Assembly (NCBI GenBank): GCA_016839345.1
Contig: JAEOUL010000290.1
Location: forward strand, 1-28,628
DNA length: 28,628 nucleotides
Reading direction: 5' to 3'
Source: Candidatus Thorarchaeota archaeon
GTDB lineage: Archaea > Asgardarchaeota > Thorarchaeia > Thorarchaeales > Thorarchaeaceae
The notes beneath the pieces were generated by a model, which saw nothing but the letters and a program-made list of their open reading frames with translations, was not told where the DNA came from and made no database searches. Positions 8,313 through 26,384 of this stretch are shown one piece after another; the first letter of the stretch is position 1; each line of letters starts with the position of its first letter. The position numbers were made by a program, and so were the translations under genes.

Positions 8313-10097
8313 TTAAATTGAAGTCACTACAGGTTCGCGGCGCTCGTACTCACCCTCGCCCTGAACGGTCACCTTAATCTTTTTCTTGTCACCTGGATTC
8401 ATTCTCTGCCAGGTCCAGACCATGTAGTTTCCGCCTTCAGCGACCGGAAAAACTTCTGGCTTTTCATCCTCTGGGTCTGTTGATATGTATTCGAAGCCAG
8501 CCGGGATCCAATCTGTAACTTCTATGTTCTCAGCAGTGACCTCGCCATTGTTTGCTACAACGAGAACCACGATGTACTCGCCAACACCAGCTCCTTTGTT
8601 GATCGCCTTTTTTGTAGAGATGGCACGTTTCTTGTAAATGACTCCAAGCTTATGACCATCTTCTGGGCTCTCAGCAACTGAGGGGATTCCTGCTGGGTAT
8701 GTGTTTCCAGTGCAGGTGACCGGTGATGGGTACTCCTTCTCAGGACGATTCCTCCATGTCATGATAGCGAAATTGATCTTGACACTCTCACCTGGTTCAA
8801 GTTCACCAACTGAATCTCTCAAGTTCTCAACTCTGAATGTAATCTTGTGTGGTTTCTCTGGGTCTTGGTCTGCAGGATCAATCAAAAATTCGTATGGACC
8901 TGAGTATTCTTTGCCTTTAATCCAGACAGAAATATGCTCACTTGTGGGTGGCATGATATCATCAGGTAAATTGTCCTCTATAGATATTTCATCAAGTTTT
9001 GCTGACCCATTGTTTGTAACTTCGATAGTGACTTCAACAGGTGTCTTGTCAAAGCTAGCTACAGCTGGCGGGTCAAATTCTTTTGAATAATCAATGCTAT
9101 ATACGGGAACTTCTTGTGCAGCCTTCTTAATAGTGCCCAAAACTCTCTTGGTCAAGGCTCTCACAGGAGTGTATTCAAGCTCCTGTGTGCACTTCGGGGT
9201 GGACTTGCTACTGACCTCAAAGGAAGAACTCCATTCCTGATTAGGTTCTAGTTCAACTCCAGGTGACTCTTCTATCATCTTCTGTTTCTCTCCACCATCT
9301 TCTGGTGTGAGGAAAACTTCTGCTTTGTCAAGTCTGACTACCAAATCACTCTCATTTGAACACTCAAGGGTGCACTGCCAATTGTTTGGCTCCGTTTCAG
9401 CAGTTTCAATTCCCGTAAGAAATTCAGTCAAAGCAGATAGTTCAGGCTTGAGCCGAGACCTCTGCTGACCTTCACCCCTGTAGGTTATGACAACATCCCC
9501 TGCCTTCTTGGTTTCTATATCCTCTACAATCCCAGTTGCACTGATTACTAGTTCGGAGGACTCCTTTGGATAAATGATGAAGTCTTTCCAAACTATCTGT
9601 TTTGTACCTTCATCATACTCGGCTGTTCCTGATTTCGCTGACACGACTTGAATGTTTGAGAGTTCGGGTGGAATCGTCTTATTGAGAATTATTTGATCTA
9701 ATTCACCATCTGTTTCATTATTGATTTTGAGAGTGATCTTAACAGGATTTTCTTTTCCCATTACATATGCCCAGTGTGGTTCATCTGTTTCGATAGTTCC
9801 ACAAGTATCAAAGACTTCTGTGAAGGTGATTATAGGCGCTTTTACTGAAACACCATAATTGGCTTCCCACTTACCACCTACATCAACTTCTCCTGCAGTT
9901 AGTGTTTCCTCATCGATATCTGTCTTATCTCTACTATCTCCAAGGAGAACTTTCACATTCCAAATGCGGCTTTTATCAGACACATTATTGACGCTCAAGA
10001 CACCCGAAGTTTCAACACTATTCAGCTCATTTAGTCCACCAAGCTGTGTCTTCTCTGTTTCTTCGAGATCAATTACAACCTTTTTTCTTTCACTCAT
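8313..10097 (-). CDS. Multi-domain beta-sandwich repeat protein (DUF11-like), no signal peptide
   Basis: A 594-residue acidic protein made of Ig-like/DUF11-type beta-sandwich modules. I see two module types: A (about 33-98 and 238-312) and B (about 105-207, 333-450 and 484-588), in order A-B-A-B-B. B modules carry the DUF11-style pattern 'tNNGsa.ld.i.i.D.lP' (TNNGSAKLDEISIEDNLPDD, and ANNGEVTAENIEVTDWIPAG) and end with 'PGes.kI' elements. A modules share W...F/Y-V-S-K-A/S-P spacing. Such domains usually occur on secreted surface proteins, but this one begins MSERKKVVIDLEETEKTQ with no hydrophobic segment, and no anchor or transmembrane helix is visible at the C-terminus. It would therefore be cytoplasmic unless exported by an unrecognised route. 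The ATG at 10097 follows GGGTG. It may be co-transcribed with the gene 70 bases upstream. Confidence 0.75.
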   Translation of the reverse strand: MSERKKVVIDLEETEKTQLGGLNELNSVETSGVLSVNNVSDKSRIWNVKVLLGDSRDKTDIDEETLTAGEVDVGGKWEANYGVSVKAPIITFTEVFDTCGTIETDEPHWAYVMGKENPVKITLKINNETDGELDQIILNKTIPPELSNIQVVSAKSGTAEYDEGTKQIVWKDFIIYPKESSELVISATGIVEDIETKKAGDVVITYRGEGQQRSRLKPELSALTEFLTGIETAETEPNNWQCTLECSNESDLVVRLDKAEVFLTPEDGGEKQKMIEESPGVELEPNQEWSSSFEVSSKSTPKCTQELEYTPVRALTKRVLGTIKKAAQEVPVYSIDYSKEFDPPAVASFDKTPVEVTIEVTNNGSAKLDEISIEDNLPDDIMPPTSEHISVWIKGKEYSGPYEFLIDPADQDPEKPHKITFRVENLRDSVGELEPGESVKINFAIMTWRNRPEKEYPSPVTCTGNTYPAGIPSVAESPEDGHKLGVIYKKRAISTKKAINKGAGVGEYIVVLVVANNGEVTAENIEVTDWIPAGFEYISTDPEDEKPEVFPVAEGGNYMVWTWQRMNPGDKKKIKVTVQGEGEYERREPVVTSI

Positions 10098-10167: not shown

Positions 10168-10881
10168 TCAGTTTAGCTCGTATCTGAACTCATTTCCTGC
10201 AGCCCAATGTACATTGAGAACCTGATTTGGTTCCATTACGACCGGGGCGATTCCTTGACCAAACTGTTGGATATATTTTGAGAACTTCTTTGGGTCTTCG
10301 TCCGAAGACCATCTCATTGGTATTCCCACTCTTGGTTTTGCATCAATACACAGACTCACCGCATCCTTTACAGGGAACACTCCATCACCACCGACTGGGG
10401 TTATGAGGATGTCCATGTCCAGATGTTCAAATGGTCCTCTTATCGTAGTATCACCAAGATATCCAACCTTCATGTCACCTATTTCGATGTACAATCCTAG
10501 ATTCTCAATGTGTCCTCCACTCTCTTGGTCTATTCTTGAGAGGGCATATGGCACAATCTTCACATCAGGAATCTCATAGGGGACCTCTGGTTTAAGCTCA
10601 TGAAGTAACCAAGGTTTGACACCCTGTTCTGTGGCTTTCTCACCTGTTTCTTTGTTTCCAAGAAACCAGGCTTTAGAATTCACCGCGATAGTTGCAGCGT
10701 TTCCAACTGCATCATCTGCGCGATTCGTAGAAATAACTACTCTGGCCATGAAATCATCTGGAACAATCTTTTCACCATCCCAAATTCCCGGATTCAAGAG
10801 AATCACAGTTTCATTGAATTCGAGTGCAAATGAAGTCTTACCAAAGTACGCAATTTTGAGCAACGAATCACTTCCCGTCAA
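10168..10881 (-). CDS. Metallo-beta-lactamase-fold protein (UPF0173-like) lacking metal ligands
   Basis: A 237-residue protein with the backbone pattern of the UPF0173/UlaG-type metallo-beta-lactamase fold: KIAYFGKTSFALEF, VILLNPG, YLGDT, DILITPVGGD, KDAVSLCIDAKPRVGIPM. In active relatives the loop after the second strand is THxHxDH; here it reads TNRADD (52-57), so the metal-binding histidines are gone. The later histidine positions are also changed (VPYALSR where AlHS is expected, and IPMRW where PmHY is expected); only the Asp of GDT remains. It should be a non-catalytic member of the fold, for example a binding or regulatory protein. A TTG start at 10881 is used here; TTG at 10863, preceded by AAGTGAT, is an alternative. 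It may form an operon with the repeat protein downstream. Confidence 0.78.
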   Translation of the reverse strand: MTGSDSLLKIAYFGKTSFALEFNETVILLNPGIWDGEKIVPDDFMARVVISTNRADDAVGNAATIAVNSKAWFLGNKETGEKATEQGVKPWLLHELKPEVPYEIPDVKIVPYALSRIDQESGGHIENLGLYIEIGDMKVGYLGDTTIRGPFEHLDMDILITPVGGDGVFPVKDAVSLCIDAKPRVGIPMRWSSDEDPKKFSKYIQQFGQGIAPVVMEPNQVLNVHWAAGNEFRYELN

Positions 10882-10985: not shown

Positions 10986-12410
10986 ATGCGGAGAGTCTTT
11001 CAAGCCGGAAAAGGAAAAACTCCGACTAAACGAGTGCTATCTTTTTATGACTCTGGCATGACTGAGATTCAGAGGTCCTGCAAATCACGCGGATTTGTGA
11101 AAAGCGAGTTGGATTCTATGCTTGATAAAATTCTCACTGAGAAATTCAGAAAAACATTGAGGATGGTTTTTACAGATATTAACACCCAGCAGGACCGCCG
11201 TGATGAACAGGAGTTTGCCAAAGACGAACTCCGCATCAAAGAACGACTTCTGGATACTTTCAATCCTTATAGTCCTGATGTAATTTTGGATAATGATTTC
11301 CGAGTAGCCGCAATCGATGGATCAGGTACTGACAGCTTAATGACACTTGATGATATCAGAATTCACCTTCTCAGTACGTCAACTATTGTGGTTGATACAA
11401 ACACACAGTCCGAGAAACTATTCTGTCCTTTGGATAGAGAAACTCTGGAGAATGAGTTGGGAGAACAACCTCATTTGGATATTCATTGGCATTCAGGAGT
11501 GCGAGGAGATGCTCGAGCAAAGTTGGCTGAAACTCTTGCGAACATCTATCCATTGAAAGATGTGGCTAGTTTGACTCTTCCCTTCTTCCAAGATTTTACT
11601 GAAGGGAAGATATCCTCGTTTTCTGATTTTACTGATACCGAATATGAAAAACACGTTCCTAAACTGAGAGAGATTGAATCATTGATCTCTCGAGAGCAGT
11701 TATTGACCAATCCTGTAGTCCATGAAGAGATCAGAAAAACAAGCGAGTATGCTGCTGCTCGTCAACTACTTGTGAGCGACTTACAACCAAAGTATCTTCT
11801 CTTGGATGGAGCTCTATCAGTTTTCATGCATTTTGTACGACACTATCCATCTATGCCCAGCGGCTTCATGCTTAGAGACTTGTGTGCTCTTGCACGGCAG
11901 AACGACGTTATCCTATGTGCAGTAAGTAAGAATCATACAATCCCTTTTGCGCATCGCATCGCTGGTATGGCTCGAGATGTGTTTGGAGAGAATGCAAAGT
12001 GGTTCTGCCATCTACCAAGTAAGGATGATCCAGAAGGAGGTCTGCACATTTATGATGACCGAACATATATTCCCCCGATGTTGGCTGTCCCATACCTCTA
12101 CAGCTTCTCAAGGGACAACAGACCTTCAAGGGTTGATTTTGATAGGATATGGTGGCTCAAGAACATATTTGTTCCAGGTGACCAAAGTGCGACTCGAGCG
12201 AATGAGAAGGCACTCTTTGCAGAGCTTGAATTCATGTCAAGAGACGCTAGATGGTATGGTTATCCAGTTCCGCTTGCCTTGGCTCATGAGTCATGTAAGT
12301 TGAGCTACGAAGACCTCAGACTGGCAAAGGAGGTTTGTATGGATGTTCGATTATCGATGGGTCTTGAACACCGAAAGGCTGAACCATTACGTGCTGATTA
12401 TGATTTGTAA
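10986..12410 (+). CDS. nurA: NurA-type 5'-3' nuclease
   Basis: A 474-residue NurA-domain protein, the nuclease that forms a dimer on the HerA hexamer and degrades 5' strands at DNA ends. The characteristic motif VAAIDGSG places the first catalytic Asp at 111, and the second acidic motif YLLLDGAL gives Asp274. The later conserved region 'DVILCAVSKNHTIPFAHRI' and the C-terminal VDFDRIWW strand also match the family. The N-terminal ~100 residues are helical and polar. It heads the operon, with HerA 15 bases downstream. The ATG at 10986 is used; ATG at 11058 (MTEIQRSCKSRG) would remove 24 basic residues and may be the true start, since that is where the predicted helices begin. Confidence 0.88.
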   Translation: MRRVFQAGKGKTPTKRVLSFYDSGMTEIQRSCKSRGFVKSELDSMLDKILTEKFRKTLRMVFTDINTQQDRRDEQEFAKDELRIKERLLDTFNPYSPDVILDNDFRVAAIDGSGTDSLMTLDDIRIHLLSTSTIVVDTNTQSEKLFCPLDRETLENELGEQPHLDIHWHSGVRGDARAKLAETLANIYPLKDVASLTLPFFQDFTEGKISSFSDFTDTEYEKHVPKLREIESLISREQLLTNPVVHEEIRKTSEYAAARQLLVSDLQPKYLLLDGALSVFMHFVRHYPSMPSGFMLRDLCALARQNDVILCAVSKNHTIPFAHRIAGMARDVFGENAKWFCHLPSKDDPEGGLHIYDDRTYIPPMLAVPYLYSFSRDNRPSRVDFDRIWWLKNIFVPGDQSATRANEKALFAELEFMSRDARWYGYPVPLALAHESCKLSYEDLRLAKEVCMDVRLSMGLEHRKAEPLRADYDL

Positions 12411-12425
12411 ACTGAGGAATGTAAC

Positions 12426-14195
12426 ATGAGTTTAGAAAGAGACAAACTTGGAGAACTTTTTGGTAAAGTGGGTGTTGGAAATCAGACTACACTCGGTATA
12501 ATGGGGAATAATCGTGACATAAGTGTAGGAGAGATATTCATGATATACTCTCATCGTGATGGACATGAGAGAGTGTTCTTCTTCAGAGTCCTTGATTTGG
12601 AGAACTATCTTCGACAAGTTGATGATCTGGCTCGCGTTGCAGGCACCCTTATGGTTGAGGGAGATGCATATCTTTCAGGTATAGAGCGAAACATGCTTCT
12701 TTCTGTAGGTGGACGAATGTTAGGATATGCAGAAAAAGAAGGAACCGAATGGGTCTTCAGATCACCAAGACGTCTTCCCGACCATCTGGCATCAGTGTAC
12801 CGCCCTGTTCCTGGCATAACTGATGAATTCGCCAGAATAGCGCTTAAACGACAAATTGAAGGAGAGGTCTATGTTGGCGACCTACAGGTAGGCGAGAACA
12901 CACTTGATGTTCCAATCAAAATACCCTCCAAGTTCCTACCCATGCATGTAGGCATCTTTGGATCAACAGGAGCGGGGAAAAGTAATCTAATGATGGTTCT
13001 AATCAAGTCAGTCATTGACAATAATCTGAATGCATTCAGAAACCCCAAACAAGGACTGCCACGGATATCCGCTTTCTGTATTGATCCACATGATGAGTTT
13101 GCTAAGGGTGTTGACAAGTACGGTATTCAACATGTGATTGAAGATATGAGTATCTCGACAAGATCCGAGGTCATTGGTGATTTTTACTACCTGACAACAC
13201 ACAAAGGAGCCACAACAAGGGATGTTCGAAAATACGCCCGAGAAATACGCATCCTATGGTCTGAGATTCAACCACGCGACCTATACTCAATACGAGAATT
13301 TACTGCTGAAATGACCTCGTTCATAGACTCTCAATACTCGTCGCAAGGCGAGAATTGGATAGATTCTATTCTTAATATGGATGAAAAAGACGCAGAGGCT
13401 GCAAACGTCCAGAAAGGTACGCTGAGAGCAGTGAAACGCAGACTTAGTTTTCTCAGAAGGTCTCCAATTTACATTGATAAAGGAAACTCAATTCTCAGTG
13501 ACATTTTCATAGCTATGGAAACTGGTCGCATCCTAGTTGTTAACACAAGTCTGATGAGTGACAGAGAACAATTCCTGCTAACAACCGTTGTCACTAGAAC
13601 ATTGTCTGATCTAAGACGAGCCTTGAAGAGTAGTGGGAATCTGGGTGATTTTGAGAACCAAGGTCGGATGCGACTTCCATCATCATTCTTCAATAAAATC
13701 AGAGCACATGCTAGAGCATTCTATGGTTTGGGAGGTACTGAGGACAAGACCCCTGTTCAAGACCCTAAGTTTCTTCCTGTTATCCAAGTGACAGTTGAAG
13801 AAGCGCCATCTATTCTCAATCCTGAGTTGATGCGTGGAACGTCAGTCTTCAAGGATATCTCTCGGCAGGGTAGGAAATTCAATATTGGACTACTGGTTGT
13901 AAGCCAACAAGTTAGTGTTCTTGATAATGTGATTTTAAGTCAGATGAACACTGAGATTAACCTTAGACTTGGAAATGAGCGAGAGATACGTGCCTGTATT
14001 GAGAATGCAAGTGTGAATATTACTGGGTTCGAGAATGAATTTCGGGTCATGTCCCGAGGAGAAGCAATCGTAACACAATCATATAGGGAACTCCCCTTAC
14101 CGATTAAAATCCCGTTGTTCGATGACATATATGAAAAGGACAGAGATAGATACAAGGACAAAAGTTCAAAGAAGAGTGAAGAACACATACTCTGA
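12426..14195 (+). CDS. herA: HerA hexameric DNA translocase/ATPase
   Basis: A 589-residue HerA/FtsK-superfamily ATPase that pumps DNA into NurA during end resection. The N-terminal HAS-like barrel (about 1-150) is followed by the RecA-like core. Walker A is GSTGAGKS (179-186). A Walker B strand VIQVTVEEAPSIL has the acidic pair Glu458-Glu459 where HerA normally has Asp/Glu-Glu-Ala. Downstream, the conserved RQGRKFNIGLLVVSQQ and QMNTEINLRLGNE segments match the sensor and arginine-finger region of the family. A helical insertion (about 235-330) and a lysine-rich tail (KDKSSKKSEE) are present. GAGGAATG precedes the ATG at 12426. The position between NurA and Mre11 supports the assignment. Confidence 0.92.
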   Translation: MSLERDKLGELFGKVGVGNQTTLGIMGNNRDISVGEIFMIYSHRDGHERVFFFRVLDLENYLRQVDDLARVAGTLMVEGDAYLSGIERNMLLSVGGRMLGYAEKEGTEWVFRSPRRLPDHLASVYRPVPGITDEFARIALKRQIEGEVYVGDLQVGENTLDVPIKIPSKFLPMHVGIFGSTGAGKSNLMMVLIKSVIDNNLNAFRNPKQGLPRISAFCIDPHDEFAKGVDKYGIQHVIEDMSISTRSEVIGDFYYLTTHKGATTRDVRKYAREIRILWSEIQPRDLYSIREFTAEMTSFIDSQYSSQGENWIDSILNMDEKDAEAANVQKGTLRAVKRRLSFLRRSPIYIDKGNSILSDIFIAMETGRILVVNTSLMSDREQFLLTTVVTRTLSDLRRALKSSGNLGDFENQGRMRLPSSFFNKIRAHARAFYGLGGTEDKTPVQDPKFLPVIQVTVEEAPSILNPELMRGTSVFKDISRQGRKFNIGLLVVSQQVSVLDNVILSQMNTEINLRLGNEREIRACIENASVNITGFENEFRVMSRGEAIVTQSYRELPLPIKIPLFDDIYEKDRDRYKDKSSKKSEEHIL

Positions 14196-14205
14196 GGATG
14201 TATAG

Positions 14206-15516
14206 ATGAAAGCCAGAATCGCTCACATCTCCGATACCCATCTTGGTACACGCCCAAGAAATGGAGTACGTCCCAACGTGTGGGGTGAAGAGATGCGGTC
14301 TCAGCTTCTTGAGAACGATTTCTATGAGAGGTTTCGAGAGATTTTTGAAAAAATCTCAGAAATTGACCCCCCTGTTGATTTAGTTTTACATTCTGGAGAC
14401 CTCTACAACTCACCATGGGAAGGAAATCCTTCGCAACCCCCAGTAGTTGCTCAAGAAACCGCCATTATTGTCCTACAGAATTTCATCAAGAAAACAGGTA
14501 TTCCAGTCCTCATTATTGAGGGTAACCACGGTCTCTATAGACTTCTAGAGGTTTCTCTACTTGATAGTCTGAAACTGGCTGTTCCAGGCTTGGATGTAGC
14601 TACTCAGCAAGACCTCAAACAAGCTGTGAGGGAAGGTAAGCCGCTTGCCTTTTCTTATGACAAATTGGATGTTTATTGCTTCCCATTCATGGACTCTGCA
14701 GTTCTCAAGTCCACAAACATGACTGCAAGATTTGATGATTGGATAACTTCACACCAAATTCGTGATCGATCAAAACCTTCGGTTGCAGTTGCTCATGGAA
14801 TGGAGATCGATCAAACTCTTTTCAAAAGCATATTCACAATGGACTATGATTACGTAGCCTTGGGTCATGATCATCATCAACATGCATACTCCACAGGAGC
14901 ATGGTATGCTGGATCACCTGAGCGATGGAGGTTCGATGAGATCCGTCATGAAAAAGGATTCATTGTTGTAGATGTTGAAACCGGGTCTAAACCGATGATT
15001 ACATCTCACATCCTTGATTATGACCGACCTATCCTAAACGAAAAAATGGAAATCGCTGTTGATGACACAGTTGAATCAATTTCGGACAAAGTATATGCCC
15101 TTTTTGACGAGAAAGGTATGAAAACATCTTGGAATCCTCCAACTGCCGCACGGATTCGTCTAGTGTTTGAAGGGAAAGCAACACGAGTATCCTCATTTGA
15201 CCTTGGAATGGCACTTGAATCTCTTAGAATGAAGATTCTATCAAAAGACTCCGAATATAATGTAGCACAGTTTGTCTGGCATGTTCGACAATCTGTCGAT
15301 GAGGAATTTACAGCCGCCTCATATCCTGATATTGAGTCTGAGTATCTCATTCAAGACCCAGAGGAAGATTTCCGTGAATATCTACTAACACTTGAGATTG
15401 ACAAGAGTCTGGACCCGAGCGTGCTCACCAAGATTGCAGTACGTTCACTTGAACATGCTGTGGGAAAGAGAGATGGTCAATTGAATACTGAATCAATCAT
15501 GGAGGACAAAAAATGA
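14206..15516 (+). CDS. mre11: Mre11 double-strand break nuclease
   Basis: A 436-residue member of the calcineurin-like phosphoesterase family; Mre11 nicks and trims DNA at breaks, together with the ATPase Rad50. Manganese ligands are all visible: Asp10 and His12 (HISDTHLG), Asp65 (LHSGDLYNS), Asn107-His108 (EGNHG), His197 (VAHGME), and His221 and His223 (ALGHDHH). The usual GNHD motif here ends in Gly (GNHG), which does not remove a metal ligand but is uncommon. The capping domain and C-terminal Rad50-binding region (about 290-436) follow. GAGGATG precedes the ATG, and the 3' end overlaps the start of rad50 by 4 bases (ATGA), indicating translational coupling. Confidence 0.93.
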   Translation: MKARIAHISDTHLGTRPRNGVRPNVWGEEMRSQLLENDFYERFREIFEKISEIDPPVDLVLHSGDLYNSPWEGNPSQPPVVAQETAIIVLQNFIKKTGIPVLIIEGNHGLYRLLEVSLLDSLKLAVPGLDVATQQDLKQAVREGKPLAFSYDKLDVYCFPFMDSAVLKSTNMTARFDDWITSHQIRDRSKPSVAVAHGMEIDQTLFKSIFTMDYDYVALGHDHHQHAYSTGAWYAGSPERWRFDEIRHEKGFIVVDVETGSKPMITSHILDYDRPILNEKMEIAVDDTVESISDKVYALFDEKGMKTSWNPPTAARIRLVFEGKATRVSSFDLGMALESLRMKILSKDSEYNVAQFVWHVRQSVDEEFTAASYPDIESEYLIQDPEEDFREYLLTLEIDKSLDPSVLTKIAVRSLEHAVGKRDGQLNTESIMEDKK

Positions 15517-17591
15517 AAATCCTTCAATTACAGATTCGTAATTTCAAACCATTCGTCAATCTCACATTACCCCATGGAGATGCTGAGTTACCTGATGGGC
15601 TTATTCTCATCAAGGGTCCAAATTCAACAGGTAAATCATCCCTCTTTGAAGCCATCCTCTGGGGGCTCTGGGGAGCAGATGCAGTTGGTCTTACAAATGA
15701 CGAATTAATCAATTTTAGATCAACATCCTGTAGAGTAATTCTAATCTTTCAGGTTGCAGGAACGCAATACAAGATTGATCGATCATATGACCCGGCAAAT
15801 GGAATGACTGTGGTCCTGTTCACAAATCGGGAAGGTGCTTGGAAAAGAATTGCTGACAAGAGTAGGTCAGTCAATTCTAAACTTGATGAGACTCTGAGTC
15901 TTGAACTTAAGCAGGCATTAAGCACACTCTTGGTTCGACAAGGTGAGGTTGCAGTTATTGCAAATGCTACTCCTTCTGTACTGAGAGAACTCCTTGTAAA
16001 GGTCTATGACATCGACTTGCTTCATCAGATGTCAAATCACTTGGAAAGCCTAGAGAAAGAAATAGAGTCAAAAATCAAAGCACTAGAATCCGACTATACA
16101 AGGCCTGAGGAGATTGAGAAACAAATTGGGAATTGTGAGGCTCGAATCACTCGTTTTGAATCTGTACTTGACCTTAGGAAAAATGAGATTGAATCAACAG
16201 AGAAAATGCTTCAAGAAATTCCGGATGTTGACGTCCTAAAGAAAATTCATGATCTTAGTACTTCGATTGAGAATCTTCAACGTGAGATTGAAGTTAAAAG
16301 CGAAGGGCTTGAAACAGACCTTGCCCAAGCTGGAGTCGTTGACACTAGTGCTAAGATTCTAAATGCACGACTAGACTCTCTAGAAAAAGGACGAAAACGA
16401 ATCGAGGGAGAAATGAAGACAATCAAGCGTAGAATACAGACTTTAGACCAAGAAATTGGATCAATTTCAGGCAGGAACAATGACATGAAGGATAAGATTC
16501 AAACCCTGTCTGATGCTGGAACAGAAGATATCATTGAGTGTCCCACATGCGCGAAACCACTTTCCTCAACCGAACGCAACAAACTTGTGGCTGAATACAA
16601 GACAACAATCAAGGACGGAGAGGCCAAAATAAGGGATAGCGAGTCAGAGAAAAAGCAACTCATTGCTACTTCAGATGATTTCGATGATCAACTCTCTCGA
16701 ATGTCCAAGAGTGAGGATGCCGTGAAAAGGGTGAGTCAAGGACAGAAGAGGGTTGACCAAACAAAGGAGAAAGTTTCCAAAATTGAGCAAGAGCTCGCTG
16801 GATTCCTAAAAGAAAATGGAATCAAGAACGTTAGTACATTACTCAAAAAACACAAAATGGCCAGTATCTTAGATCTTCAACAAAATGTTGTATCCCTCGA
16901 AGCGACTTTGACAGCTCTTCGCAATGAAACCTCGGAAAGCGAGGAGAACATACAGAGAGAACGAGACATGATATCAGAGCTTCAGGAAAAGCAGACGTAT
17001 ATGGAACAAATCGGTGCTGAAATTGTACAACTCCAGAATATGAGTAAACACACAAAATATGTTCGTATAAAGCTGGTCAGTGGGTTTGTAACTGACTATG
17101 TATTTCAGAAACGACTACTTGGTATCATCCGGGGCGCAACTAACCCATACGTAAGGTCATTTACAAATGGTCAATACACAGCTGTTGACCTAGAACCAAC
17201 ACCTGCTAAGGGTCGTTCGGGTCCTGGACTTATCCTCAAAATATGGGATGAACGTGATCAAGCTTGGAAAAAGACCTCTCAATTGAGCTTTGGTGACAGA
17301 ACCGCAATTAGTTTGGGTTTAAGGATGGGAATCAGCCGTACTATGAGTAGTATTCGTCCTTTAAGGGACAGTCCTGTCGTAACACCTCGTGTTCGTTCTG
17401 TTCTTCTTGATGAACCCCTTGGAGGTCTAGACAAGATTCGACGTGAGGCTGTTGTTAGAAATCTTATCAACGACCAAAGTTTCGAGCAGATTCTTCTGAT
17501 AACTCACACTGATGTCCAAGGTTGGGAGGGAATCCCTGTTATTGATGTGTCTAAAACTGGTGCCTCTAGTAATGCGATCCTCGAGATGTGA
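15513..17591 (+). CDS. rad50: Rad50 ATPase (short form)
   Basis: A 692-residue SMC-like ATPase that binds Mre11 and tethers DNA ends. N-terminal Walker A GPNSTGKSS (35-43) is followed by a helical coiled-coil arm. The zinc hook CPTC (Cys343, Cys346) lies almost exactly at the middle of the protein, a second arm follows, and then the C-terminal ATPase lobe: signature LSFGD (591-595, usually LSGGE), Walker B LLDEP (Asp633-Glu634) and a D-loop GGLD. Archaeal Rad50 proteins are often about 880 residues, so each arm here is shorter by roughly 90 residues. The ATG overlaps the mre11 stop. A TATA box for the next gene follows, so this probably ends the operon. Confidence 0.93.
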   Translation: MKILQLQIRNFKPFVNLTLPHGDAELPDGLILIKGPNSTGKSSLFEAILWGLWGADAVGLTNDELINFRSTSCRVILIFQVAGTQYKIDRSYDPANGMTVVLFTNREGAWKRIADKSRSVNSKLDETLSLELKQALSTLLVRQGEVAVIANATPSVLRELLVKVYDIDLLHQMSNHLESLEKEIESKIKALESDYTRPEEIEKQIGNCEARITRFESVLDLRKNEIESTEKMLQEIPDVDVLKKIHDLSTSIENLQREIEVKSEGLETDLAQAGVVDTSAKILNARLDSLEKGRKRIEGEMKTIKRRIQTLDQEIGSISGRNNDMKDKIQTLSDAGTEDIIECPTCAKPLSSTERNKLVAEYKTTIKDGEAKIRDSESEKKQLIATSDDFDDQLSRMSKSEDAVKRVSQGQKRVDQTKEKVSKIEQELAGFLKENGIKNVSTLLKKHKMASILDLQQNVVSLEATLTALRNETSESEENIQRERDMISELQEKQTYMEQIGAEIVQLQNMSKHTKYVRIKLVSGFVTDYVFQKRLLGIIRGATNPYVRSFTNGQYTAVDLEPTPAKGRSGPGLILKIWDERDQAWKKTSQLSFGDRTAISLGLRMGISRTMSSIRPLRDSPVVTPRVRSVLLDEPLGGLDKIRREAVVRNLINDQSFEQILLITHTDVQGWEGIPVIDVSKTGASSNAILEM

Positions 17592-19884: not shown

Positions 19885-21345
19885 TTGAGCGAAGAAGAAA
19901 CATTGTTCAAAGTTCGTCTGAAGAGTCTTCTTCGAGAAAACATAGTACTTCTTCTAATTCTTGTAGTGGCAGCTATTGTCTGGTCAGTCGTTTTCTCACT
20001 TGGGGCTTCTTCCTTCTTATCTAATGGTGAAGCCCCCTTGAGATCCTCATGGAATGGGGCTGGTAATTTCGACTTCTTTGGTATAACAATAAACTATGAA
20101 TTTGAAGGGTGGGCTGACTATGATTACTACTATCTGTCTTGGGCTGACCAATTTCTAAATGGAGTGACACCGTATTCAGAGAATTTTGACACCTATATCC
20201 TTAACGAAACCGAATACGATACACCTTTCTTCCTTCCCCCACTTTTCCTTTATCTCTGCTCCCTAGGCGCAGTAATGGGTCCATTGGGACCCGGATTCCT
20301 AATCTCGCTATTGGGTTTTGCGACTGCATTTCCAATCTTTGGTATCGCAAAATACCTCTCAGAGAATCAGAGAGTTGGAGAGATAGCCGCGGCTACATAT
20401 CTTCTGAACCCACTTATTCTCTATCACACAGCCTTTCAGTGGTTAAATCCTGCTCCCTTTGTATTCTTCACAGTACTCTCATTCTATCTATTGATGAAAC
20501 AGAAAAGGGTTGAAGGTACACTCGCCATGGTGACTGCAATCTTTTTCAAACAGATAGCTATTTTCATTGCTCTTCCTCTGATTGCATACTTGATTAGAAA
20601 ACCTCCCTCCAAAGACCCTTACCTTGGAGATGAATCTCCACAAGACGAGTCAAGAGACCTTCACAAAGATCCTGTCGATCTCAAAGGATTTGCCAAGTTA
20701 GCTATCATAGTATTGGTTTATGCTATTGCATTGTCTTTTCCATACATACTTAATCCAGGTAACTATCTTTACTACATGATACAAAAACCTGGCTCAACTT
20801 TGTACAATAACGTGACAACTTTTCCACAAGGAAATCATCCAATAACCTTCACCGTTCTTTTCATCCTATTTCAATCTCCAGAATGGTTGGCTGAGCTTAT
20901 CAATCAGGGTGTATATTACTCAATTTTCATCTTACCTGGGGTTCTTGGTGCACTTGGTTTATGTCTCTTTGAAGAAAAGGATGACCAAAACCTCCAGGGG
21001 TATTGGCGTAGAATCCTATTCTTCACGCTGATTCTAGTGTTCTGGGTGCATATCTTCTCACCTAGAGGAATCTACAAGTATTATTGCGTCGCCCTGATGC
21101 CTTTTATCTCAATACTCTCCTCTCATCGGATGATGTCTGATAGACCCGGAAAAATCAAGGCATCCCTTCCTATGATAATAATACCAGCCATTGTGAGTCT
21201 TGTTATTCTGATACCGAATCGTAATGTCTACATCTTACTTCTAATTTTAATAATGGTGGCCTATATCCTTCAGAAGGACTTCTCAGTTGTGTATGGTCTG
21301 ATAAGAATACGGATACTACGTCTGAAACCCGGATTTGAGCAGTGA
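19885..21345 (+). CDS. GT-C-like polytopic membrane protein, short paralogue
   Basis: A 486-residue relative of the preceding gene. It shares the first-loop motif (FGITINYEFEGWADYDYYYL with Asp78, then PYSENF), the block RVGEIAAATYLLNPLILYHT, then WLNPAPFVFF, and the later IFSPRGIYKYYCVALMPF which matches the ARGVFKYYFVAIVPF of its neighbour. It lacks the C-terminal six-span extension. Both are probably GT-C-type glycosyltransferases or close relatives, acting at the membrane on lipid-linked sugars. The start is TTG at 19885, with GGAG (19872-19875) and AAGGT as the Shine-Dalgarno. The gene begins 13 bases after its neighbour, so the two form an operon. It abuts the convergent gene at 21346. 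Confidence 0.72.
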   Translation: MSEEETLFKVRLKSLLRENIVLLLILVVAAIVWSVVFSLGASSFLSNGEAPLRSSWNGAGNFDFFGITINYEFEGWADYDYYYLSWADQFLNGVTPYSENFDTYILNETEYDTPFFLPPLFLYLCSLGAVMGPLGPGFLISLLGFATAFPIFGIAKYLSENQRVGEIAAATYLLNPLILYHTAFQWLNPAPFVFFTVLSFYLLMKQKRVEGTLAMVTAIFFKQIAIFIALPLIAYLIRKPPSKDPYLGDESPQDESRDLHKDPVDLKGFAKLAIIVLVYAIALSFPYILNPGNYLYYMIQKPGSTLYNNVTTFPQGNHPITFTVLFILFQSPEWLAELINQGVYYSIFILPGVLGALGLCLFEEKDDQNLQGYWRRILFFTLILVFWVHIFSPRGIYKYYCVALMPFISILSSHRMMSDRPGKIKASLPMIIIPAIVSLVILIPNRNVYILLLILIMVAYILQKDFSVVYGLIRIRILRLKPGFEQ

Positions 21346-22533
21346 TTATTCTGATTGTTTTAGTTCTTCCAATTCACTCTGCTTCTTGTTCATTTTTTTC
21401 TTTAAGCTCGTAGAACGAGCGTCCAACTTTTCTACTTGTTCGGCAAAGGATTCTTCAGTCATGGCTCCTGAGCTTTGTCGTTGCTCTATATGCTTACGAA
21501 GCTGCTCAACAGACTTGAATTCTTTCTTCAGTGCTTTGAGATCTCCTTCAATTGCTGTTATCTTGCTCTCATCTGCCGTCTTGAACTGCTTGGCTGGAAT
21601 CATAACTCCGAGCTGATGTTGGGTCTTCTCTGCAAAATCTTGAAACTGGTCCCTTAGCAACTCTACGTTATGATCAACATTGGACACTTGTTCCTTTACC
21701 TTAGAGATATCTTTCTGAAGATCAAATACAGCGTTTACAAGTCGTTTCAACGTCTTTTCTAGCTCGGCAGATACTGTAGGATCTGCCTCTATGACCTTCT
21801 CTTTCGTAGCTTTATCTTGTTCTGTTACAACTGAACTAGGCATTGTCATCTGGAATTCTCCACTAAGCCATCTGAAGGCGTTTACAGCAAATGCTTTGTT
21901 TCCTTTATGCTTAAGCCCACCACCTTTCCGAAAAACTTCATAGCTACCTACGCACATTATTCGACCCTTTCCCGGTTCGACAATAGCAACGACAGCTACC
22001 TTCCCTGGATCCGCAGTTTCTGATGTGACAGCAAGTGCAGTGGCGTTGTCGGTTACCTTGAGACTACACGCTGATGGTATTAGAAGATCATTAACATCTT
22101 CCATTGAGGGGTGCGAAATAATATCCGATATGATTGGCATTGTTGGTAAACCTGCATTAACGCGGTCATCCTTGACTGCCGTGTTTTCGAACGAGATTCC
22201 GAATTCAGATGTAATTTTGGACAGGTTGTTCATGAGTCCTCGGTCGCCTCCAGAGAGTGACAGAAGAATCAGACCACCACCATCTAAAACGAATTTTTTG
22301 AGAACATCAATTTCCGCTGGTCGTAACTTCGAGCTGTTGGGGCAACCAAACACCATCACATCTGCATCTTTGAGATTCTTTGCTAGAATCATAAACTCTG
22401 TATATGCTTCGATATCAAAGTCATTGTCTTTCAGTAGTCGCCCAAGTTCAGAGTATGTACTATCTAATCTACCTCTTTCATTCTGAGTCTGGTCAAAGAG
22501 GATTTTCTTTCTCCTTCCGCTCAAGCCATACAC
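21346..22533 (-). CDS. GIFT-domain (IFT52-like) protein with C-terminal coiled coil
   Basis: A 395-residue protein with two parts. Residues about 10-226 match the GIFT fold of IFT52 and GldG: ILFDQTQNERG start, KNLKDADVMVFGCP, EIDVLKKFVLDGGGLILLS, EFGISFENTAV, then GKGRIMCVGSYEVF followed by NAFRWLSGE. Eukaryotic IFT52 shows the same order (ILFn, 'GPre.ft..E.eiLkkyld.GG', 'eyGi.vnnDaV', 'GG.laVlGS..mF', 'vf.WL..g'). The fold resembles glutamine-amidotransferase-like Rossmann domains without the catalytic Cys. Residues about 255-395 are a long charged coiled coil (for example LEKTLKRLVNAVFDLQKDIS and EQLRKHIEQR). There is no membrane segment or signal peptide. The GTG at 22533 is used; TTG at 22524 is an alternative preceded by GGTG. 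Function is not known; a structural or complex-forming role is inferred. Confidence 0.7.
   Translation of the reverse strand: MYGLSGRRKKILFDQTQNERGRLDSTYSELGRLLKDNDFDIEAYTEFMILAKNLKDADVMVFGCPNSSKLRPAEIDVLKKFVLDGGGLILLSLSGGDRGLMNNLSKITSEFGISFENTAVKDDRVNAGLPTMPIISDIISHPSMEDVNDLLIPSACSLKVTDNATALAVTSETADPGKVAVVAIVEPGKGRIMCVGSYEVFRKGGGLKHKGNKAFAVNAFRWLSGEFQMTMPSSVVTEQDKATKEKVIEADPTVSAELEKTLKRLVNAVFDLQKDISKVKEQVSNVDHNVELLRDQFQDFAEKTQHQLGVMIPAKQFKTADESKITAIEGDLKALKKEFKSVEQLRKHIEQRQSSGAMTEESFAEQVEKLDARSTSLKKKMNKKQSELEELKQSE
21393..21399 (+). terminator. T-run inside the opposing gene, candidate terminator
   Basis: Seven T follow 48 bases after the stop of the short GT-C-like gene, inside the convergent coding region at 21346-22533. 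Archaeal RNA polymerase stops at such T-runs, and no intergenic space exists, so it is a reasonable terminator; no hairpin is associated. Confidence 0.3.
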
Positions 22534-22633: not shown

Positions 22634-23062
22634 ATGAGCGATGAGAAATGCATCTTCTGTAAGATTGTTCGCGGTGAGATGCCAGCTTCAATTATTTTTG
22701 AAGATGATGTTTGTTTGGCTTTCATGGATGTATTTCCAGTGACCGAGGGACACAGTCTGCTAATTCCAAAGAAACACTATGTGAATATGTTTGATATTGA
22801 CGGAGAAGTGGTTGGGCATTTAGCAAAACGGCTTGCAGATCTGACTAGGAGAGTCAAGAAAGCTTCTGAAGAAGAGGGAGTAATCAACATTGTAGCAAAT
22901 GGAGAGGGTGCTGGACAGGAAATTCCTCATTTACACTTTCATGCTATTCCACGGAGCAAAGGGTCTCCTTTCGGATTCAAGTTTCCCCCTGATTACCGTG
23001 ATTCTATGGCGGACAGAGAGGATCTAGACCGCATGGCGCAGAAGATACGTGATTCTATTTAG
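22634..23062 (+). CDS. HIT-family nucleotide hydrolase
   Basis: A 142-residue histidine-triad protein. The triad reads PHLHFHAIP with His99, His101 and His103, the last acting as nucleophile that forms a nucleotidyl intermediate. The N-terminal CIFCKIVRGEMPAS is typical of the Hint-like branch, where the CxxC binds zinc. HIT proteins hydrolyse adenylated compounds such as AMP-amides or diadenosine polyphosphates; the exact substrate is not shown here. The ATG at 22634 has a TATA-like box about 30 bases upstream. Its TAG stop overlaps the stop codon of the convergent PPC gene. Confidence 0.92.
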   Translation: MSDEKCIFCKIVRGEMPASIIFEDDVCLAFMDVFPVTEGHSLLIPKKHYVNMFDIDGEVVGHLAKRLADLTRRVKKASEEEGVINIVANGEGAGQEIPHLHFHAIPRSKGSPFGFKFPPDYRDSMADREDLDRMAQKIRDSI

Positions 23063-23493
23063 GTGATATTGAGAAGATTGAGACCAGTCCTCTCATCTCT
23101 TGCTCTTTTCAGTTCCGTTGATATTTCAGTAATCACTAGCTCAATCGTAGCCGAAACCTTACACCCTCGCATCAAGTGACCCCCATAACATTTGCCCGCT
23201 TCATCTGCCACAATCATATGTGCATGAACCAGAGGTTTTCCATCAAGCATCGAGATATTTCCCATGCATGAAACTACCTCAACATCATCATCAACAAAGA
23301 AGTCTCTGTATTCATTGGCTTTGATGTTGAAGTAACCGAGTTTAGCTCCTGAGATTGCGCCAATCAGATGTACTTGACCTGATTTTACTCCATATTCTGC
23401 AGCAACTGTTTCAATAGTTTCAAGAACATCCTCGCCAGGCTCCATTCTTGAAAAAATTACTCGTTTTGCTTCAGTCTGAATTGAACGAACCAT
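23059..23493 (-). CDS. PPC-domain (DUF296) putative DNA-binding protein
   Basis: A 144-residue PPC-domain protein, a small trimeric fold found alone in archaea and bacteria and attached to AT-hooks in plants. Features are the N-terminal GEDVLETIETVAAEYGVKSG, VHLIGAISGAKLGYFN, a strand HAHMIVADEAG and the family element GGHLMRGCKVSATIEL with its GGH motif. The reading frame opens 26 codons earlier (23571), but ATG at 23493 is preferred: it starts at the domain boundary, and a TATA-like CATTAATG lies about 24 bases upstream, giving a leaderless transcript. The function of free-standing PPC proteins is uncertain, though a DNA-binding or metal-related role is proposed for the family. Confidence 0.85.
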   Translation of the reverse strand: MVRSIQTEAKRVIFSRMEPGEDVLETIETVAAEYGVKSGQVHLIGAISGAKLGYFNIKANEYRDFFVDDDVEVVSCMGNISMLDGKPLVHAHMIVADEAGKCYGGHLMRGCKVSATIELVITEISTELKRARDERTGLNLLNIT

Positions 23494-23513
23494 GTTTTGA
23501 GTCAAAGCACCCA

Positions 23514-23521
23514 CATTAATG
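23514..23521 (-). promoter_or_regulatory. TATA-like box for the PPC gene
   Basis: CATTAATG lies about 24 bases upstream of the ATG at 23493 on the minus strand, the spacing of a leaderless archaeal start. It falls inside the longer reading frame that begins at 23571, which argues that the extra N-terminal residues are not translated. Confidence 0.4.
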
Positions 23522-23594
23522 AAGGACTCGGATTCACAATAGGAAGTGCTTATCAGGGATAATCCGCTCATTTAATCTGTGAGTGGCATTGCCC

Positions 23595-26384
23595 ATGGAT
23601 GAGAAACCAGATGACAATGGACAATCTTCTCTTGAAGATTTCTTCACAGGTGAAGCGTCTGAAGAATATTTGAATGAGGTATTTGACGGACCTAACAAAC
23701 ATCAGGCCAATCGTGATGCTATCTCATCCAATAACAACGACTCACAAAATGATGCTTCGAGTGATGATCTCTCTGAAGAAGAGGAATTATTACCAATTCA
23801 TGTAGGCGCAGCAGAGCTTCCTGAAGACCTTCCGCCATCCTTTCTCCTGTCCGTTGATTACTCAGGTGAACATAACAAAGCTATTGCTCGTTTGTACAAA
23901 CCTGACTCAAAAGAGGTGTTTTTCTGGCTTGATAATACAGGTCACAAACCCTATTGCTACACGGATTGGCCACCTCAAGCAGTCGAGTCTGTGGGGAAAA
24001 AGCATCGTGGTTTTATTGGTACAGAATCAGTGGATCTTCACGATTTACTCCGTGATGAACCAGTTAAAATGACGAAAGTCATTGGTGACAACCCACTAGC
24101 AATTGGTGGTAGGGCTGACTCAATCAGAAATTCGTTATCAGACCCGAGCACTGGTGTCAATCATGCATGGGAGGCTGCCATCCGCTATCAGCTCTGTTAT
24201 ACTTACGACAACAATCTCGTACCTGGACTCATGTACAAGATTGAGAAAGGAAATCTCATTCCAGTTCCACCAGATGTCGATGCCAAGATTCTCAAAGAGT
24301 TTGAGAAAACCATCAAAGAGGATGAGGATCTCAAATCAATTATCGCGGAATATTCACCCATGTTCTTCACCGAAGTGCCTGATATCTGGCGAATTGCAGT
24401 AGATATTGAAGTGTATACTCCTGTAGCTAATCGCGTTCCTGATACCCGAACCGCAGAATATCCTGTGACAGCAATTGGGCTCTCAGATAATACTGGTTAC
24501 AACAAGTGTTTTCTCCTAAAGAGAGATGGTCATTCAGACGGTAAGAAAGGAAAAGACTTTCCAAAACAACTTGAACTTGTGTATTTTGAAGATGAGGCTG
24601 AGATGCTTGTTGAAGCATTCAAAGTCATTGATCAATATCCTCTTGTATTGACATTTGTTGGGGATACATTTGATCTCAAATACCTCCACAATCGAGCAAA
24701 GCGACTCCGTATAGATATGGACAAATATTGTCCTATAACACTTAGAGGAAATCAGGACCCAAGGCGAGAACGAGCATTATTGAAACGTGGAATCCATGTA
24801 GACTTTTACAAGTTCTTCACAAATCCATCAATCAAAATCTATGCATTATCAGCCGCATATCAAAGGGAGAATCTTGACTCGATAGCAGAGGGAATCTTGG
24901 GAGCCAAAAAATTAGAGCTGAGCGATGATATCTCACGACTAGGATATTTCGAGCTTGCTCATTACTGCTGGCAAGATGCTAATCTAGTGATGCAATTCAC
25001 TCAATTTGAGAGTAACCTCTTACTTCGCTTAATCGTCCTATTGATGCGTATCTCTAGAATGTCAATGGATGAGGTCACCAGATTCTACATATCCTCTTGG
25101 ATTCAGTCACTATTCAGACAGGAGCATCGATCTAATAAGCTATTGATACCCCGTCGTATCGATATTGATAGTGTGAAACAGGCTGACGCACAAATTGAAG
25201 CCACAATTGGTGGAAAAGGATTCAAGGGTGCTATAGTAATTAATCCAATTGCAGGCGTGCATTTCAATGCCACAGTGTTGGACTTTGCTAGCCTATATCC
25301 AACTATTATGAAGACGCACAATATCAGCTACGAAACCGTCGATTGTCCACATGAGGAATGCAAGACAGGAACCGATAACCAAGTGCCAGAAACTGAACAC
25401 TGGACTTGCAATCGCCGTCGAGGGATGATTAGTCAGACTATTGGTTTCTTTAGAGATACACGAGTAAAGTGGTTCAAACCAAAAAGTAAAGACAAAGCTC
25501 TCGATGAAAATACCCGGAACTGGTATTCGGTTGTAGAACGAGCACTGAAAGTATTCGTCAACGCCTCCTACGGAGTCACGGGAGCACCCCACTTTGAGCT
25601 ATTCTGCATGCCTGCTGCAGAAAGTGTGACCGCCTATGGGCGTGATGCGATTCAAAGAACCAAAACAAAAGCAGAGTCCATGGGAATTAGGGTTCTCTAC
25701 GGAGATACTGATTCGGTCTTTCTTGATAATCCTTCAAAGAAACAACAAGAGGAACTCGTGGCTTGGTCCAGTGAAGTCCTTGGAATTGACTTGGAAGTAG
25801 AGAAAACGTACAAGTATGTAGCACTATCAGATCGAAAGAAGAACTACATAGGCGTCTATAAGGATGGAAGAGTAGAGGTCAAGGGGCTGAGTGGCAAAAA
25901 GCGAAACACGCCTGATTTTGCTCAAGATGCCTTCAGAAAGATGCTAGAAGTTCTGAGTAGAGTTGATGACTCTGAAGGATTTGAAGCAGCGAAAGAGGAA
26001 ATACGGGAGATTGTGAACTGTGTCATTGATAGAATTGAAGGAAAGGCTGAAGCATACAATCCCGAAGAACTTGCTTTCAGAATCCAAATGACAAAACCAG
26101 TTCACTCCTATGATACTGATATTCCACATGTCAGAGCAGCAAAGATGCTAATTGAGGCAACGAATGATCCTACTAAGGCGCTGCCTGGTACGATAGTTTC
26201 CTACATAAAGACCAAGGGACAGGATACGGTGATTCCAGTGGAACTTGCTAAAGACATGAGCTACTGGATTGATAAGGACGCATACATTGACATACTGAAG
26301 AGTGTGTTTGAACAGGTTCTTGATTCAGTGGGTCTCGACTTTGACGAGTTTCTTGGATTTACGACTCTTGACAAGTTCTTCTGA
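23595..26384 (+). CDS. polB: Family B DNA polymerase with N-terminal PIP box
   Basis: A 929-residue family B polymerase. Proofreading exonuclease motifs: VDIEVY (Asp270, Glu272), VGDTFDLKYL and YCWQDANLV. Polymerase motifs: DFASLYPTI (Asp563), VNASYG, YGDTDS (Asp704, Asp706) and KKNYIG. A Cys-rich insertion (CPHEEC, then WTC) precedes the fingers. The first 70 residues form an acidic, disordered-looking tail that contains QSSLEDFF (10-17), an exact fit to the PCNA-binding box Q-x2-L-x2-F-F. The C-terminus ends TLDKFF, a PIP-like form lacking Gln. In a cell this enzyme would replicate or repair DNA bound to the sliding clamp. ATG at 23595 fits a CATTTAATC box at about 23569; GTG at 23583 is in frame. 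Confidence 0.9.
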   Translation: MDEKPDDNGQSSLEDFFTGEASEEYLNEVFDGPNKHQANRDAISSNNNDSQNDASSDDLSEEEELLPIHVGAAELPEDLPPSFLLSVDYSGEHNKAIARLYKPDSKEVFFWLDNTGHKPYCYTDWPPQAVESVGKKHRGFIGTESVDLHDLLRDEPVKMTKVIGDNPLAIGGRADSIRNSLSDPSTGVNHAWEAAIRYQLCYTYDNNLVPGLMYKIEKGNLIPVPPDVDAKILKEFEKTIKEDEDLKSIIAEYSPMFFTEVPDIWRIAVDIEVYTPVANRVPDTRTAEYPVTAIGLSDNTGYNKCFLLKRDGHSDGKKGKDFPKQLELVYFEDEAEMLVEAFKVIDQYPLVLTFVGDTFDLKYLHNRAKRLRIDMDKYCPITLRGNQDPRRERALLKRGIHVDFYKFFTNPSIKIYALSAAYQRENLDSIAEGILGAKKLELSDDISRLGYFELAHYCWQDANLVMQFTQFESNLLLRLIVLLMRISRMSMDEVTRFYISSWIQSLFRQEHRSNKLLIPRRIDIDSVKQADAQIEATIGGKGFKGAIVINPIAGVHFNATVLDFASLYPTIMKTHNISYETVDCPHEECKTGTDNQVPETEHWTCNRRRGMISQTIGFFRDTRVKWFKPKSKDKALDENTRNWYSVVERALKVFVNASYGVTGAPHFELFCMPAAESVTAYGRDAIQRTKTKAESMGIRVLYGDTDSVFLDNPSKKQQEELVAWSSEVLGIDLEVEKTYKYVALSDRKKNYIGVYKDGRVEVKGLSGKKRNTPDFAQDAFRKMLEVLSRVDDSEGFEAAKEEIREIVNCVIDRIEGKAEAYNPEELAFRIQMTKPVHSYDTDIPHVRAAKMLIEATNDPTKALPGTIVSYIKTKGQDTVIPVELAKDMSYWIDKDAYIDILKSVFEQVLDSVGLDFDEFLGFTTLDKFF

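Follow-up and report, generated by a model that had tools for sequence, protein, structure and literature searches.

The intraflagellar transport (IFT) complex IFT-B is organised around IFT52, as described in the part of PMC10191852 available to us, and IFT52 itself (PDB 5fmr, 5fms, 8bd7) carries an N-terminal GIFT domain followed by a further tail. GIFT domains also occur in OST48/Wbp1, a subunit of oligosaccharyltransferase, and the same superfamily takes in GldG (Pfam ABC_transp_aux, PF09822) and DUF4350 (PF14258, arCOG01314). According to the accessible portion of PMC5898192, an archaeal GldG-like membrane family has already been published, and arCOG01314 proteins possess a signal peptide and a C-terminal membrane helix. 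The literature searched, which leaves out most subscription journals, yielded no account of an IFT52 relative in Asgard archaea. Here we describe such a relative, encoded in a 28,628-nucleotide stretch from Candidatus Thorarchaeota archaeon (contig JAEOUL010000290.1, referred to below in its entirety as the window), in which a GIFT domain is joined to a C-terminal coiled coil; we call the protein and its family GIFT-CC. A soluble GIFT family present in most sampled Asgard genomes is a candidate source for part of IFT52 and offers a testable non-ciliary function, and GIFT-CC may show where that part came from.

The open reading frame at 21346..22533 on the minus strand is confirmed as a real gene. 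It comprises 395 codons from a GTG, and because homologues start with MSGRR, coinciding with a TTG at 22524, the likely product is a 392-residue protein initiated there. The GIFT domain (21847..22512, minus strand, approximately residues 8-229) was delineated by Pfam IFT52_GIFT, a PDB profile search, an AlphaFold2 model and Foldseek/VIA, and the C-terminal coiled coil (21352..21774, minus strand) by AlphaFold2 secondary structure, with helices at approximately 254-308, 320-354 and 360-394. The model, built from 39 sequences, is confident across the GIFT domain, where ten-residue blocks over 11-230 have pLDDT values of 77-98 and one block 65; pLDDT is only 57-73 over residues 251-320, within the predicted C-terminal helix region. 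Similarity of the coiled coil to SMC and Rad50 models was set aside as coiled-coil bias. The maximum 19-residue hydropathy is 1.38, so by that measure the protein has no membrane helix, and unlike arCOG01314 proteins, as far as the available text of PMC5898192 describes them, it has no hydrophobic stretch of the membrane-helix kind. The first-pass annotation had proposed by eye that an archaeal GIFT-like domain is joined to a long coiled coil, an arrangement that these analyses support in an Asgard archaeon. Overall, the pairing of a soluble GIFT domain and a coiled-coil tail is suggestive of a cytosolic adaptor.

Among Pfam models, IFT52_GIFT (PF23355) matched the window protein with E = 2.8e-15 and 56.5 bits, above its cut-off of 27.2. 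The matches to DUF4350 (24.0 bits, cut-off 30.4), ABC_transp_aux (20.2 bits, cut-off 34.7) and ThuA (17.9 bits, cut-off 33.4) were weak and fell below theirs, and no protease or amidotransferase family exceeded its cut-off among 25 of the 44 Pfam rows. A phmmer search against PDB returned Chlamydomonas IFT52 (7.5e-10 and 1.7e-9) and mouse IFT52 (1e-4) and nothing else under 0.5, and PDB profile searching aligned both halves of the domain with IFT52, although sequence identity was 22-29% in the four pairs compared. Fold comparison by Foldseek/VIA likewise placed IFT52 closer than amidotransferase and ThuA-like folds, with OST48 second best; the fold lists hold no row for a GldG structure, and the comparison is thus silent on GldG. 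The GIFT-like region of site-1 protease (8uw8), ThuA-like proteins and class I glutamine amidotransferases were all clearly lower than IFT52.

The same preference extends beyond the window. In an alignment of the window's family, all 39 members match IFT52_GIFT at E <= 0.01, compared with 36 for DUF4350, 31 for ABC_transp_aux and only four for OST48_N. Five of ten Asgard GIFT proteins scanned exceed the ABC_transp_aux cut-off and one (L079) that of DUF4350, but IFT52_GIFT outscores both models in all ten and in the window protein. The order is inverted in two comparison proteins, one actinobacterial and one haloarchaeal, for which DUF4350 scores above IFT52_GIFT. Domain placement nearer to DUF4350 or amidotransferases, named beforehand as the outcome that would remove the IFT52 link, did not occur; on sequence profiles the domain lies nearer IFT52 than PF09822, DUF4350 or ThuA, and on folds nearer IFT52 than amidotransferase and ThuA-like proteins. 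As a side observation, an actinobacterial (Nonomuraea) DUF6421 protein (L075:3983-6106, plus strand) has an N-terminal GIFT-like domain scoring 38.4 bits with DUF4350 and 20.6 with IFT52_GIFT.

Across the Asgard phylum, 178 of 195 genomes had an IFT52_GIFT match over the cut-off, compared with none of 14 control genomes. These matches represent several families, including soluble proteins with a GIFT domain and tail, soluble proteins of ~306 residues, and membrane-anchored and secreted forms. GIFT-CC is a distinct group among them, found with a profile of the window's own family at E <= 1e-85 in 129/195 genomes; 77 loci score at least 278 bits and the next 207, a gap measured with a profile built from the family's own members. 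These proteins form one clade in GIFT-domain trees with moderate support (88/89 in a 77-row tree, 88/97 in a smaller set) and are 329-517 residues long (median 455 over the 77 loci). The window protein itself matches 312 proteins at E <= 1e-3, and the best 120 of these are 67-100% identical to it and, where organism names are present, mostly from Thorarchaeota. Twenty-six loci in named genomes (24 Thorarchaeota, one Lokiarchaeota, one 'archaeon') were designated Thorarchaeal-type, a label that rests on organism names and shared synteny. These matches mark the window as DNA of a Thorarchaeia-like Asgard archaeon.

Gene neighbourhoods may provide a clue to present function. We compared 100 regions around GIFT genes, 77 of them GIFT-CC loci (some counts cover 82 loci); the regions were hand-picked from match lists rather than drawn at random, and some of them come from near-identical genomes or repeat the named loci. 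An ATP-dependent DNA ligase gene, identified by Pfam in three cases, directly adjoins GIFT-CC in 22 of the 77, lying co-directional and downstream at 6-138 bp in 21 and divergent in one. Of 14 genomes checked, 13 have a single copy of the ligase. These loci constitute one clade (97/97, 13 rows in the 77-row tree) whose rows diverge down to 32% identity. Thorarchaeal-type loci place GIFT-CC between a HerA/Mre11/Rad50-like cluster and the gene for DNA polymerase B (PolB), which is no more than three genes away in 24 of the 26 named loci; the remaining two contigs end first. PolB is also within three genes in 10 of the 77 sampled loci, six being Thorarchaeal-type (at least four repeat named contigs) and the others (L080, L126, L132 and L137, with L126 and L132 near-identical) belonging to other lineages, one or two genes away. 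The linkage of GIFT-CC to DNA ligase and PolB is new here, and a usually single-copy ligase directly downstream in 21 loci is an unexpected lead on what such proteins did before cilia.

We give about an even chance to GIFT-CC being a cytosolic coiled-coil adaptor, perhaps tied to DNA replication or repair. The GIFT domain, which has a glutamine-amidotransferase-like fold, is probably non-catalytic and has IFT52 as its nearest solved relative, would bind a small ligand or a partner, whereas the coiled coil would dimerise the protein or join it to a larger complex. More tentatively, that complex might serve replication or repair, given that the gene sits directly beside DNA ligase in one large clade and close to PolB in two further groups. 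We infer the absence of catalysis, the dimerisation and the scaffold role, and as some relatives adjoin genes for DNA copying or repair, the present job of GIFT-CC is probably not ciliary.

Several observations weigh against a DNA-linked adaptor. Because the ligase loci form one clade, their arrangement may have arisen once and been inherited, and the PolB linkage may likewise reflect one event. Neither gene is nearby in 45 of the 77 loci, most of which carry a nucleotidyltransferase gene instead; members of that family (Pfam PF00483 in the two scanned, 4.8e-21 and 1.9e-42) are the commonest neighbour, found within four genes at 37 of 82 loci but at none of the 22 ligase loci. The idea of one DNA context common to all lineages was dropped after these counts. 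Furthermore, a long coiled coil is not universal, since the tail is short in several members of the ligase clade (e.g. L079, of 340 residues). Finally, D122 and H141, which are conserved in GIFT-CC and in most of the other rows, could mark an active or ligand site.

The nucleotidyltransferase context, together with a published sugar-binding proposal for GIFT domains (Beatson and Ponting 2004, as cited in the part of PMC7226087 available), keeps a second hypothesis beside the DNA-linked role, in which a sugar compound is the ligand of the GIFT domain and GIFT-CC is an adaptor working with sugar-nucleotide or glycosylation enzymes. We consider this possible, at roughly one chance in four. OST48, second best in the fold comparison, is a subunit involved in glycosylation that has its own GIFT domain, and a glycosyltransferase-2 gene adjoins GIFT-CC in the ligase locus L077. 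In the window, an Alg6/Alg8-like membrane glycosyltransferase gene (19885..21345, plus strand; PF03155, 1.6e-7, 31.1 bits, cut-off 25) and a gene for a DUF2079-like membrane protein, with DUF2079 just under its cut-off, adjoin GIFT-CC. However, these glycosyltransferase-like genes are convergent rather than co-directional with GIFT-CC, and no nucleotidyltransferase was seen in the window, as in the ligase loci.

A further reading takes up the ancestor-like scaffold suggested by the first-pass annotation: the GIFT domain of IFT52 would descend from the GIFT-CC family, and the archaeal protein would already be an organiser of membrane or cytoskeletal traffic. This we regard as improbable, more so than sugar binding, although common descent of the two GIFT domains is well supported. 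Against a eukaryotic IFT52 profile of 16 rows, picked from the best 120 of 595, single GIFT-CC rows scored 51-106 bits (median 68, n = 29), compared with 39-85 (median 56, n = 24) for other GIFT rows of Asgard origin. The maximum was 36 bits for four secreted Asgard rows, 29 for four OST48-like rows and 15.5 for three DUF4350 rows; the single actinobacterial row scored 34. Row-by-row profile comparison gave medians of 110 for GIFT-CC and 84 for the other Asgard rows, with the best single row coming from the latter (L105, 139.7; L077 from GIFT-CC, 138.4). Compared group against group, with alignment depths that differ between groups, all GIFT-CC scored 211 with IFT52, other Asgard groups 151-174, the bacterial row 79, secreted rows 75, DUF4350 65 and OST48-like rows 63. 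Split by subgroup, GIFT-CC scored 153 (ligase), 179 (rest) and 134 for the window's Thorarchaeal subgroup, which thus falls below the other Asgard groups. The Asgard rows had been found with IFT52_GIFT or GIFT-CC profiles, a bias toward them, and outgroups from bacteria and other archaea (plasmid records, E. coli) contributed one actinobacterial and one haloarchaeal protein to the comparisons; because this outgroup sample is thin, 'nearest in prokaryotes' holds only for the rows compared.

Individual residues point both ways. Seven alignment columns set IFT52 and GIFT-CC together apart from the other Asgard group, and three show the opposite, a weak signal. K69 (29/29 GIFT-CC, 11/16 IFT52 rows) and P176 (29/29 and 16/16) are common to GIFT-CC and IFT52 and vary in other Asgard rows. 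In contrast, all 16 IFT52 rows have Arg at the positions of D122 and H141, in a part of IFT52 where the alignment is uncertain. Genes for Gtr1/RagA- and Arf-type small GTPases (PF04670, 1.6e-22; PF00025, 3.3e-22) adjoin GIFT-CC in L107 (4736-5896, minus strand) and lie two genes away in L175 (6935-8479, minus strand); they would fit a trafficking reading, but only two loci have them. The ciliary reading thus draws on domain ancestry and these two neighbours only.

The GIFT-domain tree recovered GIFT-CC as a clade and left IFT52 without a placement. IFT52 rows group on their own at 100/100 in both the 77-row tree, which omits nine GIFT-CC, seven other Asgard and two OST48-like rows (near-duplicate or weak) plus the four secreted rows, and the smaller tree, which omits 13 further rows that are long-branched, compositionally odd or uncertainly placed. 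The latter tree joins GIFT-CC to the other Asgard group at 71/68, with IFT52 outside the pair. Approximately unbiased (AU) tests rejected no placement of IFT52, whether with GIFT-CC (0.30), other Asgard rows (0.35), L052/L042 (0.32), OST48-like rows (0.50), DUF4350 (0.53) or the bacterial row (0.45), and the tree holding IFT52 with DUF4350 scored 1.33 log units above the free tree. The trees therefore favour none of the tested prokaryotic families as the one that gave rise to IFT52.

The other domains of IFT52 were not detected. Whereas IFT52 continues into its own central and C-terminal domains, the tail of GIFT-CC is a coiled coil, and neither the central domain (PF23352) nor the C-terminal domain (PF21178, which binds IFT46 in IFT52) is among the six families matching the window protein at E <= 0.01 or in the ten scanned Asgard GIFT proteins. 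The same library detected both in two eukaryotic positive controls (P0122 and P0225). Each domain was found in 0/195 genomes of the phylum, the control genomes likewise giving no match. GIFT-CC as IFT52 proper was accordingly rejected. The IFT46 family exceeded its cut-off in 0/195 genomes, with one match below it, and membership of an IFT-B complex is for this reason unlikely. The ancestor-like IFT scaffold of the first-pass annotation is thus not established by these results.

Least probable, and already disfavoured, is that GIFT-CC is a relative of ordinary secreted or membrane DUF4350-GldG proteins sharing only a fold with IFT52, a reading compatible with the AU tests and with the many DUF4350 and ABC_transp_aux matches, but opposed by the higher IFT52_GIFT scores in Asgard proteins, their reversal in the two outgroup proteins and the lack of a membrane helix.

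In the window, GIFT-CC is divergent from a HIT-domain gene (22634..23062, plus strand; PF01230, 3.2e-24), followed by a PCC-domain gene (23059..23571, minus strand; PF03479, 7.9e-33) and, three genes from GIFT-CC, by the PolB gene (23583..26384, plus strand; PF00136, 6.5e-51). On the other side lie genes for a HerA-like helicase (12426..14195; PF01935, 8.1e-19), a phosphoesterase (14206..15516; Metallophos, 1.9e-12) and an ATPase (15513..17591; AAA_23, 6.8e-15), all on the plus strand; the ATPase is Rad50-like, a name given by inference, and the phosphoesterase is called Mre11-like from its place beside it. The gene at 10986-12410, without a match in the Pfam search, is presumably NurA by position. 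DUF11-type (8313-10097, minus strand) and metallo-hydrolase-like (10168-10881, minus strand) genes of the window seem, by eye, to lie near GIFT-CC in L137 too.

Other neighbours recur elsewhere. A small protein of 187-223 residues, encoded after the DNA ligase (L077:9944-10504, L085:12764-13321, L091:6335-6895, L086:12565-13233), lies within four genes of GIFT-CC in 20 ligase loci out of 22 and at no other of the 82 loci; the three that were scanned matched no Pfam family. A ParA/MinD-like ATPase gene (e.g. L085:8484-9329, minus strand) lies within four genes in 13 loci, all ligase-linked. Conversely, an ATP_bind_1 family that we take to be GPN-type GTPases occurs within four genes in 30 of 82 loci, none of them ligase loci. 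Long coiled-coil proteins are encoded directly after GIFT-CC at L090:11186-13696 and L172:6159-7550.

Asgard GIFT domains also occur in other architectures. A subtilase (L038:199-3474, minus strand) combines Peptidase_S8 (1.3e-55) with a following IFT52_GIFT (3.7e-14), an order that recalls eukaryotic site-1 protease, a chain of which is present among the fold matches of the window protein. In another protein (L036:1-2232, minus strand), IFT52_GIFT (7.9e-16) precedes a PCMT-type methyltransferase domain. Proteins of ~367 residues in six loci (L065, L068, L071-L074) show, by eye, an apparent signal peptide, a GIFT-like domain and a C-terminal membrane helix. Orthology with OST48 was rejected, phmmer against PDB returning no OST48 for the one tested, and the likeness is one of topology only, which is that of OST48/Wbp1.
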